Shown: one piece after another, positions 1,747-21,282 of the stretch
How the letters are laid out: the number at the start of each line of letters is the position of its first letter
Position numbering within the stretch: the stretch's first letter is position 1
Assembly (NCBI GenBank): GCA_026770025.1
Contig: JAMXDE010000023.1
Location: 248,001 to 312,000 of the forward strand
Source: Craspedostauros australis
Taxonomy: Eukaryota > Bacillariophyta > Bacillariophyceae > Mastogloiales > Achnanthaceae
DNA length: 64,000 nt
Reading direction: 5' to 3'
Position numbers and translations under genes: made by a program
The notes under the pieces: model-generated
The model's database searches: none
What the model saw: the letters and a program-made list of their open reading frames with translations, nothing else
Told to the model about the DNA's origin: nothing

Positions 1747-4700
1747 TGTCAACGTCGATTCCAACGCCAATGCTCATGCCACGTCTCAAGTGGCAGTGTC
1801 TGCAATGGCAAGCTGCTCACAATGCCCCCGAATGTGTTGTCGCTTGATCACAGCTGAGAATCGAGCGCTTAGGTCTTCTCCAGTGCGGCATGTACGGCAC
1901 GAGCAAGAGTATCAGTGATGATCCAACCAGCGAGTCTCTTTCGGTTGGTTCGTTGCTTGCGGTATCTTGCGGTTGGTTATGGTTGGTTGCATTTGTGATG
2001 TCTTCGTGTGGAGACAGCCACAACCGAAATGCGCGGTCGTCCCGCGAGCGCGTTTGCACACAGTTCCTCTTGTGTTCGGACGAGCTGGTTGGTTCATTGA
2101 TTGATTACCTCTTTGTTAGGTCGAAATGGACAACGTGATAGTATTTATTTAGAATGCACATATTTGCGCATATGTATGATCACCGGATACGATACTCCAC
2201 ATGTTTAGTACCGTTGGTACTCTTGACTGCTTCGTTGTGCGACCCTGTCCGATACAGACAGTCTCGTTCGTTATTGTTTGTTCTGCAATTCTCCATAAAG
2301 ACGATCATTAGTCCGATACAAAGTGATGAAACAAACACAATTCGATGAAGACATCGTTCGCTGTCATCTGTGCCCAAACCAAATTGTCATATATTCAGTC
2401 CGTCCATCAGACGATGAGGCCGACATGCAAAAAGGAGAATTCTCTCAGCACAGACATCTTTGTACACATGGCGGCTTCACACCACGAGGGGCTGTAGAGT
2501 AGGTATCATACCATATGCGCCATGCATATATGCAACAGTTGTACCTGCTTTGTTGGCTTCCTTGGTGGTGAGTATTGGCGACAGGAACCGAAGAATGGTG
2601 TCTTGATCGTGGTGCTCTGCAAACAGCAAAAGGTCTTGAATGCTCGCTGGTGTTGTCGAATTCAAAAGTGTGCAATCGTGATCGTATCAGCATGGCATGT
2701 CCCAGTTCGGAACCAGAGGGCCACCCTTGTCTCGGATGGCAGACATGAAGAATGAGCAGAGGGGCTGCTCACACGACCGATGGAGACGGAACTAGGAGCC
2801 TCCTTGGATTCCGACAGATGCCGCTCCCCGTTCTCTCTCGTTCCACAGGATCAATCCAAGACCAAGCCTGATTTGTGCACATGGTCCACAAAATCCTAAA
2901 CGGCATTTGACATTTGCTCTGGAAGTGTCGCGAGAGCATACCAACGAGAAAACAGATCTCTTGGCCAAGACAATGACAAATCACCATTCGATCACCCTTG
3001 TGCACAAGGAGGGCAGTGGTTGGGAAGGATCATTCCATGGGATACAATCAGCTGCAATTAAAAAATCAAAGGGACAGCAAAGCAAGTAGAAGCCAAGGGA
3101 AGAAGTAGCAAGTGTCTCGCAAGAGTACAGAGTTGAACACTGACCACCGACCACCAACCACCGACCACCAACCAACAGGCAGCAAGCAACAAGCAACACA
3201 TGACCACCACGCTGCCGTGCGGTACACCATTGAGTGATCCTGTCTCTGGATGAAGACAGCCTCCCCAGATGGCGGTTTTCCTTGACAATCTCTCTCTCTC
3301 TCGTGCCACGGAATGTTATTCAATCTGTCTCTTCTACGTCCCGGATCTTGGGCAAGAATGAGGATCTTGCGTGGTTATGTGGAGATTAAGCAAGAAGAAT
3401 GGGAAATTCTCCATTGTCTCCGGAAGCGGATTTCCTTTCGTTGGTGCTGTTCCTTGGTTTGGTTGCGCAGGGAGAGGCGCATTGATGTTTCTGCCTCAAT
3501 CCATCATTCCATGTCACAATTGGGGCAAGACGCATGGATACTTTCCTCTCGTCCCTCCTTTATCAGAGGTAGTCACTCTTGTGCGGCTTCTGTTGCCGCT
3601 GCCACTCTCTTGGATGCTGGAGATACAAGCGCTCATGGCATGGAATTGCACAAACTGTTTGGATGGGAATGGCAATGTGAGTCATCGAACTCTGCATTCG
3701 TCATGTCGCGCGGTTGAAGACGACTCACAGCACCATGGCGTGACGAGCCGAGAGATCGCATGGTACAAAATGGCGCGTTGCACACTCACATGCGAAAACT
3801 CGTAGCTCGCAGAGTGATGTGCTCTTGTCCCCAATAGCAAGTGTGGTGATGCTGACATTGACTGATACTTGGCAAGAGATGGTGTGTGGGTTCGTTTTGT
3901 GAGCGGCGTAGGGTTCGATTCGTCCTCTTGTATGTGTGTGCGTATTTGTCTGATTGTGTCGAATTTGTCTTTCCTCCGCTGTTGGTCGTTGCCTTCTTCT
4001 TTGCGGTTGCCGCTGGCTGAACAAGATCCCTCTTTGATTGCTACGCCGTGCCTCTCACAACCTGAGATATCCCTTGTCTATCCCCTGCTGTGGCAGTGTG
4101 TGCATGTTGGAAATCTGGGGTACCCCAGTCTCTAGTAGTAGTCTCTGGTTACCTATTCATGTTATTGCATTGTTGGAACTGTGAGTACAACATCTCCATT
4201 TCTTTCAATTCCATTTGCCAAAGCATACATCATCCACAGTAGCACACAGTCTCGCCCTTGCTCATGTAGTGCTGTCCCTCTGCTTCATCATGTCATGCAT
4301 CATGTACTTCATGTACAGTTCATCTTGCAGCATTGATGCATCCCATCATGCATCTCAGATATTCCATCTCCTGCTCTCTACCAATAGTTTTGTTAGTGTA
4401 GACAGCGTTGATTCACAGGCATTCTTGACTCACTTCAATTGATGAGATTGCCATCTCCATGTTTCACAAAAGAGCTTGGACAATTGCTCCCAGTCTTCTC
4501 ATCCTGGGACATCTCTGATACTTCACTGATACTTTACCAATCCATCACCAGTTTGTCATCAGGGATTCGTTCACAGGCCATCTCACACTTCGTTGCACCA
4601 TCCATCTTCGAATCCTCCTTTTCTTGTTTGTTGCGACATAGGGTCTGTAGTCTCATGTATCATGATGCTGGTCATGAAACCAACATCCCTGCCCCCTGTG

Positions 4701-14227: not shown

Positions 14228-14803
14228 GTAGCCAAGGCTACATCAGTTGACTCAGGGGCAGACAGCGACATCGTACATGAATCCGGATGGGTTGCGACCT
14301 GACAACACCAACAGACATTCCATGCTCACAGGGCAACGATGGCCTCACCAATCAAGGCATTCCAGATGGTCAACGCGGTGGCAGTATATGAATCTCCAAC
14401 AGGCGATGTGATCCTCATCAAGGCAAAATATGTGGCTCTGGATAAGCACCCACATCAGACAGAATCATTGTTTAATACACATCACATGCGCGTGCCTGGA
14501 CTGAATGTATACGATTGCCTCATCCAACACCAGGGGCAACAGCGCAATGCATCAGGCGACACCAGCATCCCACTGGTCAACCATGGTGGCAACACCCTGC
14601 GCATCCCCATTTGGAAATTCACAGCTCATGAGCTAACACTCAATAAGCATATCACGATATGTTACAGACACCAGCACCTTTGGCAAAATAACCAGGGAAT
14701 CCATTTCAATGATGTCATCAAACACTTCCCACACCAGGTCGTCAAGAAGACAATGATGGCATCCACCCAGCTGGCGGACAGACCAATTGAGCCACATTCA
14801 TGA
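14228..14803 (+). pseudogene. copia aspartic protease region, with in-frame stop
   Basis: The catalytic motif D-S-G-A is encoded at 14249-14260 in the context S-V-D-S-G-A-D-S-D-I-V. The frame meets TGA near 14300 and continues open from 14339. The downstream protein segment runs to 14803 and includes the H-x-x-x-L-F-N-T-H-H region that links protease to integrase in diatom copia elements. The protease would release Gag and Pol products. As it stands the reading frame is not continuous, so this is a relic. Confidence 0.75.
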
Positions 14804-15795
14804 GCCATCCCATGGCAGTACCGAACACAATGAGCTGGAGTGCTCCAGCCGCAACGAATCCACGGCCGAGTCAATACGGACCCCTTCTTTTCCACAGTGC
14901 AATCAATTTTGCATTACAAAGTGCTTTCAACTCTTTGTCCACAGCAAACCAAAATTCATCTGGGCAAAGCCACTCCGAAGAGAGGCAATGATGCCAGGGG
15001 CGCTCACAGACTTCATCCTCAATGTTGGCACACCAGATACCCTTGTGTCAAACAACTTGCAGGTCCAATCAGGAAAGGCCTGGAAGGCAATCACATCCAA
15101 GCACATGATCAAGCACTCCTTCACTATGCTCATGAACCAGAACCAGAACAGAGCGGAACGCGCAATCGGCGACATCAAGTGGCATGCTTATCAATTGATA
15201 TGGGCGGCGTCTGTGCCACTCGAATTCTGGTGTTTTGCATTGCAGCATGCCATCGACATGTGGAACTATACGGACAAGGGCAGCATCCAGTGGAGGACAC
15301 CGATTGAACTTGTTCATGGCAACACGCCCAACATTTCCATGTTCCAATCCACTTTCTTCCAGCCTGTGTTGTTCTTCGGGCCAATGACAAAGTTCCCTGA
15401 GCATCCATTCAAACCAGGCTATATCCTGGGCATCGCGTGGATTCACGGGGATCCATTCACTTACCATATCTGGTCGCCACAAGACGAAGATATCAAGTGG
15501 GGCACAGTCCTCATGCGCAACATCGCCAAGCCGCATATTCTGGAATACGCAGACACTCCGCGCATCAGCAATGGAGACATACAACGAATCGCGAGGCTCA
15601 ACCTCATTGACGCAACCACAAACAGCGCTTCGGGTGGCAGGGCACAAACAAAGACTATGCCAGCTGAGCTCGCTCGACAGGTCCAAGAGGCTGTTGATGC
15701 GATTGCTGTGTGGTCAGGGGCAGCATCTTGCATCCCGGAACCTGGTCCAACGAGGGTCAGGAAAATCAAGGTCAACGCAAACACAGCTTCACTAG
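14787..15795 (+). pseudogene. copia integrase, frameshifted and with Asn at a catalytic Asp
   Basis: The integrase core can be placed by its acidic triad. The first Asp (in N-T-D-P-F-F) is at 14879-14881 in one frame. After a frameshift the remaining core is open from 14787 in another frame. The second catalytic position is an AAC codon (Asn) at 15051-15053 in S-N-N-L-Q. The Glu at 15156-15158 in Q-N-R-A-E-R-A-I-G-D lies exactly 35 codons later, the standard D35E spacing. The conserved W-N-Y region and C-terminal half follow. The frame runs without a break to the CTAG target site at 15792, where the piggyBac-like element enters, and resumes at 19742. Confidence 0.85.
15792..15795. repeat. CTAG target duplication, left copy
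   Basis: CTAG lies directly outside the left inverted repeat and matches CTAG at 19738-19741. Keeping one copy restores the interrupted copia frame. Confidence 0.8.
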
Positions 15796-15855
15796 TGCCT
15801 ATCCGCTTTTTGTGTCGCCCCCATTTGGGGCCACAAGAGGCCACAAGGGGCTACA
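15796..15855 (+). repeat. left terminal inverted repeat of piggyBac-like element
   Basis: TGCCTATCCGCTTTTT followed after a short spacer by a GGGGCCACA/GGGGCTACA block. The inverted partner is 19674-19737. Confidence 0.9.
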
Positions 15856-16240
15856 GGGTCGAAGTAGTCGAATCCTGGTACAACTCTACGGAGCCGCTAC
15901 GAGGGAAACAGCACCAACTTGCAAAAAAACACCAACATCCGCACTCTTTTGCTCCGGATTAACATTCACTCAATCCTACCAACACTAAAATTTACCAGCT
16001 ATCTGTCCTGCATCTGCTGCATCCCTCCCCGAAGTTTGGTGTTCACATCTCTTCTCCTCGTCGAGTTCTGCCACATCCAATATCGTCGGGTCCAGTCACT
16101 GGAAACCGGTGGCATCGCTTCTTCCTGCTGATCATCCCCCCTGCAGCGTTTCACTTCCTTTCCTGCATTGCATTGGCTTTTGCATACGATCCATTGAACA
16201 TAGAAAGAGTTGTGACACAGACTTCTTCACTCATCTTTCT
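15856..16240. other. 3' non-coding part of the piggyBac-like element
   Basis: About 385 bp between the left inverted repeat and the transposase stop codon. No gene is seen. Presumably it contains the transposase polyadenylation region. Confidence 0.6.
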
Positions 16241-18901
16241 TTAACTATCTGTCATGGTGTCTGGGTGTGTGGAACTACGCGACCTTGATCCTGCATGTTT
16301 CTCTGCATGGATTTCGAAACATCGTCGAAATATTCCGTCGTACTCCTTCATTTCGCAGCACCAAACAGTTTGGCCTGGAGACCCTGTTCGACAGTTCAGG
16401 CAATGGTACCTTGACGAGTTCGTGCACACACAGCATCTGCCTCGTTTCCCTCTTGTCATGAACCTGGCGATCCCCTGCTTCGTATGGTCAATCTTCCCGT
16501 TCCGGACTCTACCTGGGTGCTTTACCAAGTGGTGGCCATTGATCAAGTCTGCTCGGGGCCACTCAGCCACCTGTGTCGTCGCACGGGCCACCTGTGTTGT
16601 CGCATGGGCTGGACTGTCGGTTGTCAACAAAGACAAGGAGCCACCATTGCCACCACATTGCACTTCCGATGGCTGGTTGCTTCTCATCCTGGCAAATGAG
16701 CTTGGTGGATCAGGGGCTTCGTTGTTGTGGAGCATGTCTTTGACCATCATGTTCACGAAATCCATGAGAGGCACATTCTTGTGTCGGTGCTTGCCCGCCA
16801 AGTGGCATCGGTATGCCCTCCATGCATCCACAACGGTTATCCCAAAGAGAGTCGTGACAAGCCTGAAGTATCCGTCGCGTGTGGGCCAAGTTCTCTCCAG
16901 ACCGAGGATGTCCTGTCGAGCCTGGTTGTGGACGTCGACCTTGTTGCAGCTTTCAAAGTACTTCGAAGCGACACTTGGCCAATCCACTTTCTTCGTCATG
17001 GGGCGCCCATTGTCCAAGATCCACTTCGACAAATACGGCGCCCCGCAGCCTGCATGCCCAGCTCCCGCGGAAAAGACGAAGCAGAGTACCTTAGCCTTGC
17101 AGTACTTGTACCCCAGTGCGTAGTACTTGTGGCCGCCGCACTCGCTTTCCATCAGCAGCTGGCTTCCGGATGGCCACACCTTCATTGTGGTCTCCAGGAA
17201 GACTTTGGGGTACAACCGATGAGCCGTCTTCACGATGCCGATGAACTTCGCACCCAGCTCTGTTTCAAGCGCCTTGGTGGCCTCCACAGACGCGAACCAC
17301 GAGTCTCCCAGGAAGATGCTCTTGCCCTGGTTGAACTGCGGATCATCCGGAGATTTCGAAGGATCGGTGCAGACGTTGGTTGCTGCTGCCATGCGAAGGG
17401 TGCATGCAGCGTTCTTACCCTTCACCCTGTCAAGGAAGGCCGCACCCTCCATTCCCTCCTTGCCCCATTGGATCTCCAAGAACAGCATGATCCCTGTCTC
17501 TCCATCGGCAACGGTCTTGAATTCCACGCCCAGCGGCTCAGGTTTGCGGCGGACGAAGGATAGGTGAGGAAGGTTCCCATTCTTGGTTGTTCGTGTCTTG
17601 AAGGCACTCATGGATTCATCCATCACCTTCAGTGTGCTCGCGCACATGATCTCCGCCCGCTTCGCGTTGAAAGCATCCACACCTGGTTGAATTTGCCACC
17701 ATGGATCCGAGAATTGCTTGGATGCATCCGCGAAGATGTGTGGGATCAGTGATTCTCGGATGGCACGAAACCGATAATTCTTCATGTGGTCGGTGACGTC
17801 CATTGGCTGTTTGAATCCTTCAGTGTCTCTGTCGCCCCACAGGCAAGATGTGCCTTCGATAGTGCCCAGAAGGAGCAATCCAAAGAACACCCAAAACTCG
17901 TGATGAGATATGAGGTGATTGTCAATCTGATCCTCTGATATTCTTGTGGGAAGTTGCCTTGTGATGATCCTTTGATTGAGCTTGTCAACCTGGGCCTTCC
18001 AGTTGCCAGGCCACATGTGCTGTAGGAGATGCAGCATGTTGATACGTTGGTACCTGCTGTCCCTGCCCCTGCCCGCGACGGTTAGGTTGGCGAAGTCAAA
18101 GTTTGCAACCCCCACCCACTCCCGTGAAGATCCATCTTTGGGGCTGCCAATGTGGTCATCTGGTACAACCTTCCATGTCATTATGTCGGCTTGAGATCCC
18201 ATGCTGATGGAGGTGTTGTCGGAGATCAGTGTGGCCTTCTCTGCATGATGTGGTTCATAGTGGAGGATTTGTTCCTCCATCTCAATTGCATAATTCAACA
18301 CATCGTTGTCAAAGTTGTTGTCAATGTTGCAATCCATAGATGCGTCATCCTCCGGCTCTTTGGATCCGCCGTCAATACTGACTTTGTTGGTTGGGGGCGT
18401 GCGCAAAGAGTTCGTTGGTTGGGAAGTCGCGGCCAGAACGTTGGTCAGGTGAATGTTGATGGGAGGAGAGTTCAGTGGTAGAGAAGTTGCAGCTGGATTG
18501 TTGCTCGGGAGAATGTTGCTGGATGGAGAGTTTGTCCCAACACCCAAGTCTTGGCTGACTGCAGGCGCATCCGCCGGTCCAGTGATCGCCTCTGGTGGCA
18601 GGAGGAATCTGTGGCTCTTCGCAAAAGCATCCAATGCCGCAACTCCTTTTCCAACGAAGATGGTTTGAATGTATTCTTTGACCTTGGTGTCGGGAAGTGG
18701 ACTTTCATTGCCTTCCAGGTGAATGAGGGTTTGGGAACTGTGTTGGCATACGACACCCAAGGATTCCCAATGGACGATCCAGTTGTGTTTGGGAAGAACC
18801 TTGATCGTGCGTCCCACGATGTAGCCATGCTTTTTGCGAGGTGCGTTGGACCGACGAGGCCCGCATCTGCAAGCGACCTTGGCTCCAAGAGTGATCCTCA
18901 T
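16241..18901 (-). CDS. piggyBac-like transposase (DDE_Tnp_1_7 family), intact
   Basis: 886 residues, uninterrupted from an ATG at 18901. Residues about 1-60 form a small basic module (G-A-K-V-A-C-R...H-G-Y-I-V-G-R...H-N-W-I-V-H-W-E) that may be an SH3/Tudor-like fold. A Ser/Asn-rich linker follows to about residue 260. The core then shows piggyBac landmarks: F-W-V-F-F-G-L-L-L-L-G and the three acidic sites Asp428 (V-M-D-E-S-M), Asp533 (L-G-D-S-W-F) and Asp656 (K-V-D-V-H-N-Q). Residues 820-869 are a Cys/His-rich zinc-binding tail with C-C-x-C, H-C-x2-C, C-C and C-x3-H, as in the C-terminal finger that binds piggyBac ends. The enzyme would cut and rejoin the element. All catalytic positions are present and no stop or frameshift is seen, so it may still be functional. 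Confidence 0.93.
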   Translation of the reverse strand: MRITLGAKVACRCGPRRSNAPRKKHGYIVGRTIKVLPKHNWIVHWESLGVVCQHSSQTLIHLEGNESPLPDTKVKEYIQTIFVGKGVAALDAFAKSHRFLLPPEAITGPADAPAVSQDLGVGTNSPSSNILPSNNPAATSLPLNSPPINIHLTNVLAATSQPTNSLRTPPTNKVSIDGGSKEPEDDASMDCNIDNNFDNDVLNYAIEMEEQILHYEPHHAEKATLISDNTSISMGSQADIMTWKVVPDDHIGSPKDGSSREWVGVANFDFANLTVAGRGRDSRYQRINMLHLLQHMWPGNWKAQVDKLNQRIITRQLPTRISEDQIDNHLISHHEFWVFFGLLLLGTIEGTSCLWGDRDTEGFKQPMDVTDHMKNYRFRAIRESLIPHIFADASKQFSDPWWQIQPGVDAFNAKRAEIMCASTLKVMDESMSAFKTRTTKNGNLPHLSFVRRKPEPLGVEFKTVADGETGIMLFLEIQWGKEGMEGAAFLDRVKGKNAACTLRMAAATNVCTDPSKSPDDPQFNQGKSIFLGDSWFASVEATKALETELGAKFIGIVKTAHRLYPKVFLETTMKVWPSGSQLLMESECGGHKYYALGYKYCKAKVLCFVFSAGAGHAGCGAPYLSKWILDNGRPMTKKVDWPSVASKYFESCNKVDVHNQARQDILGLERTWPTRDGYFRLVTTLFGITVVDAWRAYRCHLAGKHRHKNVPLMDFVNMMVKDMLHNNEAPDPPSSFARMRSNQPSEVQCGGNGGSLSLLTTDSPAHATTQVARATTQVAEWPRADLINGHHLVKHPGRVRNGKIDHTKQGIARFMTRGKRGRCCVCTNSSRYHCLNCRTGSPGQTVWCCEMKEYDGIFRRCFEIHAEKHAGSRSRSSTHPDTMTDS

Positions 18902-19673
18902 GTTGATGTTGTTCGTGTTGCGGAGATGTTGGGAGGGGGATGATCAGAATGTGTGCGATGAAAGTGTTCATGTCTCAATCAAATGTTGTGTGCATGTTGA
19001 TGTGCAAGAAGTGATACAGCGTCACGCCCCAACAAATCGAGCGATCGCCGACTGTTATGGATCTGTTGCACTGCTCTGAAACCATTGTCGCCAGCAACGA
19101 TCATTGATAGATGGTGGCAACATCTTGGAATGGCCTCATGTTCATTGCTGCATGTGAACATTGGATTCAAATACAGGTGTTGGTGTGTTTGAAGTCGCCG
19201 ACACGACAAATTTCGAATCACGAGCCGAGAGCACCAACTTCAACGGCACACAAGGGGCCGACGAACAACACACAGCAGGCAACCACCACACCACCGCAAC
19301 CGGAAGAGACTCGCGATTCCATCGATGCCACGAACAGGTCCAACAGACGAAACAAAGTGCCAACCGGGGATGGAAGAGGCTTGCGCGCCTGTTTTGAACG
19401 GGTTCCGAAAATTATTTTGTACCAGGGCCCAGTAGAATTGTACGTGTAGCCCCTGTGTAGCCCCTGCGTTTTCCACCGTTTTTTTTTTCGCGGTCGGTTT
19501 GGGGAAAACCTCCAAAATGGGGTCAACACAAGCAATAAAATGGAATCCAAGCGATCAACACACAGCAAGTTTGACAACATCATCAGATAGATCTCACTCT
19601 TGGCTTTCAATTGATACCATTATATACACATTGTTGTTGGTGATAAGGGTTGGTTGTTTTTATCCGGGAAATT
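18902..19673. other. 5' region of the piggyBac-like element
   Basis: About 770 bp upstream of the transposase start and inside the element. It has no supported gene. It contains two adjacent GTGTAGCCCCT motifs near 19446-19465 and a short T run at about 19481-19490. It is the likely transposase promoter. Confidence 0.55.
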
Positions 19674-19737
19674 TGTAGCCCCATGTGGCCCATTGTAGCC
19701 CCTTTGCGCCCCTTTTCGGCAAAAAAGCGGATAGGCA
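19674..19737 (-). repeat. right terminal inverted repeat of piggyBac-like element
   Basis: Reverse complement begins TGCCTATCCGCTTTTT. The outer edge abuts CTAG at 19738-19741. Confidence 0.9.
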
Positions 19738-21282
19738 CTAGAGGACCAATGGTTTGGACAGCCAAATGTTGTGCCTGATGACAAAGACACGAGCGGAAAT
19801 GATGCTGCAGATGTGATCTTGGACAGTGATGATGATGGTGACAGCCAAATACCTGGCGACGTCTCTGGGTGGCTCAATAATTTGGCGGCAGTACCCATGC
19901 TAGATCCTTTGGAGCACCGGACTCAGGGGCATCAAAGCACTCTCGCAGAACAAGAGCACAACGAGATGTCCCAAAATCAAATTGAGAAGGCCAACAAGAA
20001 CGAACCTGAAATCACCAGCATCACAGGACACAGCTTTCGCGATGGACACCTACACCTCAATGCCAAATAGGGAATGGAGACAAGAACATGGTTCCAATAT
20101 GACATCATTCGAGCAGACCATCCGGAGCTGGTGGCGTGGTACATCATCGCAAACAAACCAACTCGGCACGGACGACACAATTGGCAATCGCAACTGATGC
20201 TACAATGGACCAATCATGCAATCCGGGCAATCAAGTGGCGCATCCAGCATAGCAAACTCACATACCAATTCACGATCGACGGCAATGACAATGTCACTGT
20301 ACTACAGCGGATTCGACCAGGCAAAAAGAAGCCGAAACGGGACTTCTTCGACACAGTATTCCAGTACAGGGGGCGAAGTGCTACGAAACATGAAGCATAC
20401 ACTACAACTCGACCAAGCCAACAACAACGACATGTGGAAGGCGGAAGCCAAGAAGGAGATTGATGCACTCATCAACCTTGCCTGCTTCAAGTTTCGTCCA
20501 TCCACATATCGACCATCAACTGAATACCAGAGCACAAAGCTCAGGCTCATCTTCATGGTCAAACGAGACCTGCGGCACAAGGCAAGGCTCATAGCTGGAG
20601 GACACCTCATCAAGCTTGTAGACAACATACGCATGTCCTCATCAACAGTCAACGCCACCAGCGTGCGTATCCTCCATGTAATTGCAGATGCGAACAAATT
20701 CCAGCAACTCTGCAGCGATATTGGCAACACATTTGTCAACACCTACACCAACAAGAAGATATATGCGAGAGCAGGAAAGGAATTCAATCACAGAGAGGGC
20801 CAGACAATTGTACTCAAGAAATCATTGTATGGACTCTGATCCAGTGCCCAACGATTCCACGCTCACTTTGCCAACACACTATCTTCCATGGGATTCAAGC
20901 CATCGCGTTACAACCAAGATGTATGGATCAGACTCCGAGACAAATCCGGAGACAACTACATCTGCACACATGTCAACAATTTCAAGATTGTACCGAAGGA
21001 CACAAATCAATACATGAAGTCAATCCAACAGATCAACACAATCAAGGATATTGGCCCACCCATATACTATCTCAGGAATGACTATTCCAGAAATGCAAAA
21101 GGCAAATGGAGCACCGGATGCAGAAAATGCATCTCAAACGCACTGGACAAAGGCGAGCGCCAGCATGGATCACTTCACAGCCAACATGTTCCCATGAGGA
21201 ACAAGGACCATCCGGAAACGGATGACTCCAAACTACTAACACCTGGCAAGCAACAAAAATCCAGCAGTTCATTGGCATGCTA
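19738..21282 (+). pseudogene. pol: copia integrase C-terminal linker and reverse transcriptase, broken
   Basis: Copia pol resumes after the nested element. 19742-20067 encodes an acidic linker and the H-S-F-R-D-G-H-L-H-L segment, then TAG at 20068-20070, then the same frame continues with H-P-E-L-V-A-W-Y. A frameshift before about 20400 leads into RT: K-A-R-L-I-A-G-G-H, the D-I-G-N motif, and K-K-S-L-Y-G-L followed by TGA at 20837-20839. After the stop come S-S-A-Q-R-F-H and T-H-V-N-N-F, where the catalytic Asp-Asp pair is expected but two Asn codons stand (20975-20980). The frame shifts again before RNase H. Reverse transcription by this copy is not possible as written. Confidence 0.85.

Follow-up and report, generated by a model that had tools for sequence, protein, structure and literature searches.

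Elements of the piggyBac type serve in genome engineering, and their choice of TTAA as target has a structural explanation. Do all transposases of this type make the same choice in nature? The question is raised by a transposon in a 64,000-nucleotide stretch of contig JAMXDE010000023.1 of the diatom Craspedostauros australis (positions 248,001 to 312,000; hereafter the window, to which all coordinates refer), where the element is bounded on both sides by CTAG. It had been described in a first-pass annotation of the window as an intact piggyBac-like transposon with a CTAG instead of a TTAA target duplication. Comparison with its relatives throughout the genome makes it highly probable that this is a cut-and-paste DNA transposon with a piggyBac catalytic domain, and that it belongs to a group of families which here duplicate a 4-bp consensus CTAG, at least one of the two CT half-sites being nearly always kept.

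The element and its target duplications

The element, the reference copy of what is called here family A, spans positions 15796..19737 (3942 bp), as delimited by a DNA search of the genome and by reading of the flanks. It begins with the 16-bp terminal inverted repeat TGCCTATCCGCTTTTT (15796..15811, plus strand) and ends with the perfect complement of this repeat (19722..19737, minus strand); the 16-mer occurs exactly 35 times in the genome, both window ends included. The perfect inverted ends are bounded by CTAG as first described, at 15792..15795 on the left, where uninterrupted paralogous sites corroborate the window letters, and at 19738..19741 on the right.

The search covered the 74.8-Mb assembly (90 contigs, window included) and revealed at least 15 places that hold nearly the whole element, namely the window copy itself and, at 92-99% identity, 14 more, of which one is short at one end. 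At least two further places reach position 3429 of 3981, and fragments and distant matches occur besides. Duplications were counted in 14 distinct copies with both ends in place, taken from the loci fetched after removal of shared flanks; L024 and L025 (flanks as in L022 save small differences), the fragments L026 and L027, the nested L018 and the end pieces L020 and L028, which lie on one contig, were dropped beforehand. An exact 4-bp duplication flanks 12 of the 14 copies: CTAC/GTAG in seven, CTAG in four (the window copy among these) and CTAT/ATAG in one. CTAG or GTAG/CTAC, which is to say NTAG as in the IS701 family, thus accounts for 11 of the 12. Contrary to the first proposal, the duplication is not fixed at CTAG, and a strict CTAG target is ruled out, CTAC being the commoner tetramer in this family.

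Uninterrupted counterparts of the insertion sites were sought by comparing the joined flanks of the 14 copies with the genome, 40 of 599 first-look candidates being scored. For four insertions, eight paralogous sites in all could be aligned gap-free through the join, over 166-180 bp, each with a single tetramer: CTAG for L011; CTAG and CTGG for L019; CTAG, CTAG and CTGG for the window copy; and GTAG and ATAG for L016. None was found for the other ten insertions among the matches listed. Gap-free uninterrupted sites with a single tetramer demonstrate insertion with a 4-bp duplication, the length first proposed, and none of the eight suggests a different one. A possible extension to 6 bp (CACTAG), also considered in the first-pass annotation, is ruled out, other copies duplicating exactly 4 bp. 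Uninterrupted paralogues are compatible both with sites that were never occupied and with sites from which an element was cleanly excised, and they cannot tell the two apart.

The same preference is seen in a second family, B, at 42% protein identity; relatives of the window transposase found by protein search are mostly 40-52% identical. Five family B copies obtained by that search, and therefore free of query bias, carry CTAG (three), CCAG/CTGG (one) and CGAG/CTCG (one). A larger sample came from a search for CTAG followed by the family B repeat with at most three mismatches, which gave 136 ends against three in a reversed control; the query started with CTAG and is biased towards it, a gap closed solely for ends not starting with CT, by searches for near-exact TGCCTCRAAGAGCCRG ends (9 and 7 ends), among which TTAA was absent. 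The input for pairing comprised 101 ends (100 of the 136, as listed, and one lacking the CT start), with partners sought 500-5000 bp apart; 23 of the 101 were left unpaired, one of them being paired later by the search for non-CT ends. Among the ends listed, the first pairing yielded 39 pairs, 38 of them with exact duplications: CTAG 26, CAAG/CTTG 3, CTAC/GTAG 3, CTAT/ATAG 2, and one each of CTCT/AGAG, CTGA/TCAG, CTCG/CGAG and CTGG/CCAG. The inexact pair, GCTA and ATAG, reads as CTAT minus one base. With one further exact pair, 39 of 40 paired insertions show an exact 4-bp duplication, 26 being CTAG. The flanks beyond the tetramer were read in five copies, and duplicated loci are possible among the other pairs. 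The lengths of the 39 pairs fall into two classes, 943-985 bp (25) and 3751-4511 bp (14), the short insertions being taken, by length, to be non-autonomous derivatives.

Families A and B together provide 51 exact duplications: CTAG 30, CTAC 10, CTAT 3, CTTG 3, and CTGG, CTCG, CTCT, CTGA and CACG once each. A CT half-site is kept on one strand in 50 of these and the central TA in 43 (12/12 in family A, 31/39 in family B), while the chance of a CT half-site in a tetramer drawn from the window is 0.113. TTAA is found in none of the 51, in agreement with the original proposal of a target other than TTAA. In the window TTAA is about as common as CTAG (29 and 36 occurrences), so the supply of sites there does not explain its absence. 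Judged from these sequences, it holds that the target is a tetramer with a CT half-site, of which CTAG is the symmetric form, common to at least two families. The tabulated flanks are thus neither mainly TTAA nor unrelated tetramers, and the proposal of a changed target choice survives, with the proviso that "changed" assumes TTAA to be the ancestral state.

Two arrangements of family A stand apart from these counts. L018 (G000:C24:648151-655465) is a copy apparently nested at a GTAG of another family A copy, its far flank being CTAG and hence unequal. On another contig, the end pieces L020 and L028 (G000:C29:377519-409982) lie about 32 kb apart and are flanked by CTTG and CAAG, which would fit a single copy broken apart by later insertions or a rearrangement. 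Small derivatives of family A were not found: no end with one mismatch or none (37 in all) lies outside the places already found by DNA search, and the 18 other matches with two mismatches are no excess over the reversed control (15).

The transposase

The transposase gene is an uninterrupted minus-strand open frame of 886 aa counted from its ATG (16241..18901), within a frame that is open from 16241 to 18943 (900 codons; the first ATG is at 18901). The protein matches PF13843 (DDE_Tnp_1_7), the Pfam model that piggyBac-type transposases hit, with an E value of 1.4e-13; the scores for families A, B and C are 51.3, 60.9 and 79.3 bits, against a cut-off of 22.4. The three Asp residues named in the first-pass annotation are the catalytic ones by alignment: D428 (codon at 17618..17620), an invariant column that aligns with the TIDEQ motif of piggyBac 6x67 in a profile including family D (a second PF13843 group, described below), D533 (17303..17305) and D656 (16934..16936), the latter two placed by the family alignment and that with 6x67, all on the minus strand. 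They are invariant in families A-D (six A copies and one B, one C and one D protein aligned), and in a PDB search with the profile including family D the three motifs are colinear with 6x67 at E 2.6e-7. By its Pfam domain and these motifs the predicted transposase is of the piggyBac type. The Cys-rich C-terminal domain expected of piggyBac, likewise noted at first reading, probably corresponds to the Cys/His-rich segment of residues 823-866 (16304..16435, minus strand), in which C823, C826, C834, C837, C848, C849, C861 and H865 are invariant in families A, B and C.

Residues 429-458, which follow D428 (17528..17617, minus strand), align with the omega loop of piggyBac and may have a role in target choice. 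This stretch is 6 residues longer than in 6x67 and than in family D. The context of the first Asp is DES in families A-C and DEQ in piggyBac, and the positions aligned to R275, Y283 and K290 read, by eye, K or Q, F or H, and P in these families.

In seven family A copies the frame is open for 877-888 codons counted from ATG. For these, the ratio of nonsynonymous to synonymous polymorphism (pN/pS) lies at 0.23-0.36 in 20 of 21 pairs, the closest pair having 0.43, as expected if the transposase protein is under selection between jumps. That the copy looks functional, as had been suggested, agrees with the several open frames and with pN/pS below 0.5.

An AlphaFold model made from a 9-sequence alignment has as its largest moderately confident part residues 1-100 (block means of 53-78), a small beta-rich region that is conserved in families A-C.

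Relationship to piggyBac and alternative explanations

The element resembles the piggyBac of Trichoplusia ni (6x67, 6x68) in the order and context of the three Asp, the Cys-rich tail, and a 4-bp duplication, usually with a central TA. It differs in target (CTAG-like instead of TTAA), in its ends (TGCC instead of the classical CC[C/T]T), in transposase length (886 against 594 aa) and in the region aligned with the omega loop, which is 6 residues longer and has F or H for Y283 and P for K290. The 4-bp duplication, a classical hallmark, is found in families A and B.

Several observations weigh against this placement, or against the target preference that goes with it. Two further classical hallmarks, TTAA and ends beginning with CC[C/T]T (PMC2872659), are both lacking, the ends being TGCCTATCC in family A, TGCCTCAAA in family B and TGGCT or TGTCT in family C. 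PDB searches with the window protein alone and with the profile of families A-C (A2) returned no piggyBac chain, in the latter case up to E 10, and when A2 is set against family D by hhalign the match is weak (probability 1.2%, E 0.043). The AlphaFold model has a mean predicted local distance difference test (pLDDT) score of only 34. As to the target, the flanks of two of the 14 family A copies do not match (CCAG/CTAG and TTAG/CTAG), and the further exact pair of family B, CACG/CGTG with its ends 1.7 kb apart, is the sole duplication without a CT half-site.

In the window copy alone, CTAG and the 16-bp repeat form a perfect 20-bp inverted repeat, and one could suppose that CTAG is part of the element, with no duplication or a different one, a reading to which the CTAG found in all three family C copies read would also lend itself. 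However, non-palindromic direct repeats adjoin the same inverted repeat in other copies (GTAG/CTAC, CAAG/CTTG, CCAG/CTGG and CGAG/CTCG in families A and B), which places the tetramer outside the repeat, and the uninterrupted sites carry one tetramer. The terminal-repeat reading is thereby refuted for families A and B, and as a general explanation it retains hardly any probability. For family C alone, of whose three copies read two have both flanks in common, the tetramer could belong to the repeat, all three having CTAG. It is also very improbable that these are ordinary relaxed piggyBac elements which prefer NTAN, CTAG being a mild bias driven by composition. Such relaxation has a precedent in Pokey of Daphnia, which takes TTAT, ATAA and CTAA beside TTAA (PMC3849761), and the central TA is indeed present in 43/51 duplications here; but TTAA is absent from all 51 although the window holds it about as often as CTAG, and of the 8 of 39 family B duplications that lack the central TA, 7 keep CT (CTTG 3, CTGG, CTCG, CTCT, CTGA). 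Pokey shares with the present families the piggyBac superfamily, the 4-bp duplication, some non-TTAA sites and small non-autonomous derivatives, but its sites are 88% TTAA and its middle T and A are described as the sole essential bases, whereas in the present families the CT half-site is better conserved than TA.

A stronger, though still improbable, alternative is that the transposase, though eukaryotic, is related not to piggyBac but to a different group of the IS4 clan, for instance IS701 with its 4-bp NTAG, and that the target preference is ancestral and not changed. Nearly all IS701 elements have 4-bp repeats (PMC2266710), which are of the form nTAG in one Deinococcus strain (PMC10017437); the element ends start with TG and not with CC, and once family D is left out the families are only weakly linked to the solved piggyBac structures. 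Against this, the Pfam scans give PF13843 as the sole significant match in families A, B and C and no further DDE domain, an IS4 family model of NCBIfam is matched without significance (E 0.21), and in the profile with family D the three Asp motifs follow one another as they do in 6x67. The likeness to IS701 is one of target repeats, and the lack of another DDE domain in the Pfam scans stands among the differences. The piggyBac-type placement is accordingly retained, with TTAA treated as a hallmark rather than as a definition, since other tetramers are on record for published piggyBac elements. Non-TTAA duplications of single elements are already in print: TTAG, CTAA, GTAA, TATG and other tetramers occur in a few animal elements, one with TATG being mentioned in the abstract (PMC10813416). 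Those are exceptions, whereas here one preference is common to two families and 51 exact duplications. The families are therefore described as a lineage of CTAG type within the PF13843 group, apart from classical TTAA piggyBac. No CTAG-centred piggyBac lineage was found in the papers searched; Repbase lay outside the search, though such families may stand there.

Possible mechanism and significance

In the strand-transfer complex of T. ni piggyBac, the omega loop holds the TTAA of the target in an unpaired state, N1 of A3 being joined to N3 of T0 by one hydrogen bond and A3 stacking on Y283 (PMC7351741). By analogy with the piggyBac structures, hairpin ends would form at excision, the 3'-OH ends would attack 4 bp apart, and the omega loop would hold the target tetramer in its melted form. 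It is in this loop, aligned here as 6 residues longer, that the different preference may reside. Our suggestion is that the single bond between T0 and A3 could form in CTAG between C0 and G3, donor and acceptor trading places, so that CTAG would be the natural alternative to TTAA. The outer bases are non-complementary in 15 of the 51 duplications (CTAC 10, CTAT 3, CTCT 1, CTGA 1); this also speaks against the proposal, for such a bond gives no account of them and cannot be a strict requirement. A wider picture is possible, although we would lean against it for now: a deep piggyBac-type clade might read CT half-sites for TT, the T0-A3 pair being replaced as a unit by C0-G3 and the enlarged omega loop being the cause, so that YTAR would be common to a wider group, together with the NTAG of IS701, and strict TTAA would be one state within it.

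A target preference long treated as nearly fixed thus appears to have changed in nature. Natural families that combine the 4-bp geometry with CTAG-like sites offer a comparative test of the residues that set target choice, and they could yield insertion tools with other targets.

Other features of the locus and related elements

Inside the terminal repeats lie subterminal repeats of GGGGCCACAA-type units, revealed by a repeat search at 15819..15855 (plus strand) and, inverted relative to these, at 19673..19712 (minus strand); they are putative binding sites of the transposase. A promoter scan gave no signal exceeding chance. The insertion interrupts a retrotransposon-like open frame on the plus strand, which runs from 14757 to 15791 on the left, without a Pfam match of its own, and on the right from 19742 to a stop, read by eye, at 20070. 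The first-pass statement that the frame is restored across the join is correct if one CTAG is kept, which leaves 109 codons open; the join 15791|19742 drops both CTAGs and meets a stop 24 codons on. Its assignment of the host to copia has in its favour one RVT_2 match to the right of the insertion, at 28.4 bits and so below the 31.6 cut-off; two other pieces examined have no Pfam match.

A search for relatives in viral contigs gave 24 pattern matches, none of them confirmed. In the genome itself there are many matches to the chlorophyll-binding family PF00504; one such protein matches PDB chains named as fucoxanthin chlorophyll a/c proteins, its four best hits being chains named LHCI. By these matches an alga whose antennae are of the chlorophyll a/c type would be likely, and a diatom possible.

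Family D, the second PF13843 group of this genome (171 bits for one protein; e.g. G000:C41:574372-577423 and copies L075-L081 on G000:C28 and G000:C26), has the ends TATCCCTTMAYGACCC, which occur 75 times in the genome and once in the reversed control; among the ends listed none adjoins TTAA. Exact 6-bp direct repeats, GCACTC and TTATAT, flank two copies (G000:C34:194881-197945 and G000:C5:795041-798105), and around a third copy the two 6-mers differ at one position; 17 pairs were compared, and the remaining 14 are without such repeats. For one copy, whose filled site reads CTAT|CCC...GGG|ATAG, five uninterrupted paralogues were found, reading C-TATA-G (three) or C-CATA-G (two), and this site fits a duplication of 2 bp (AT) or none.

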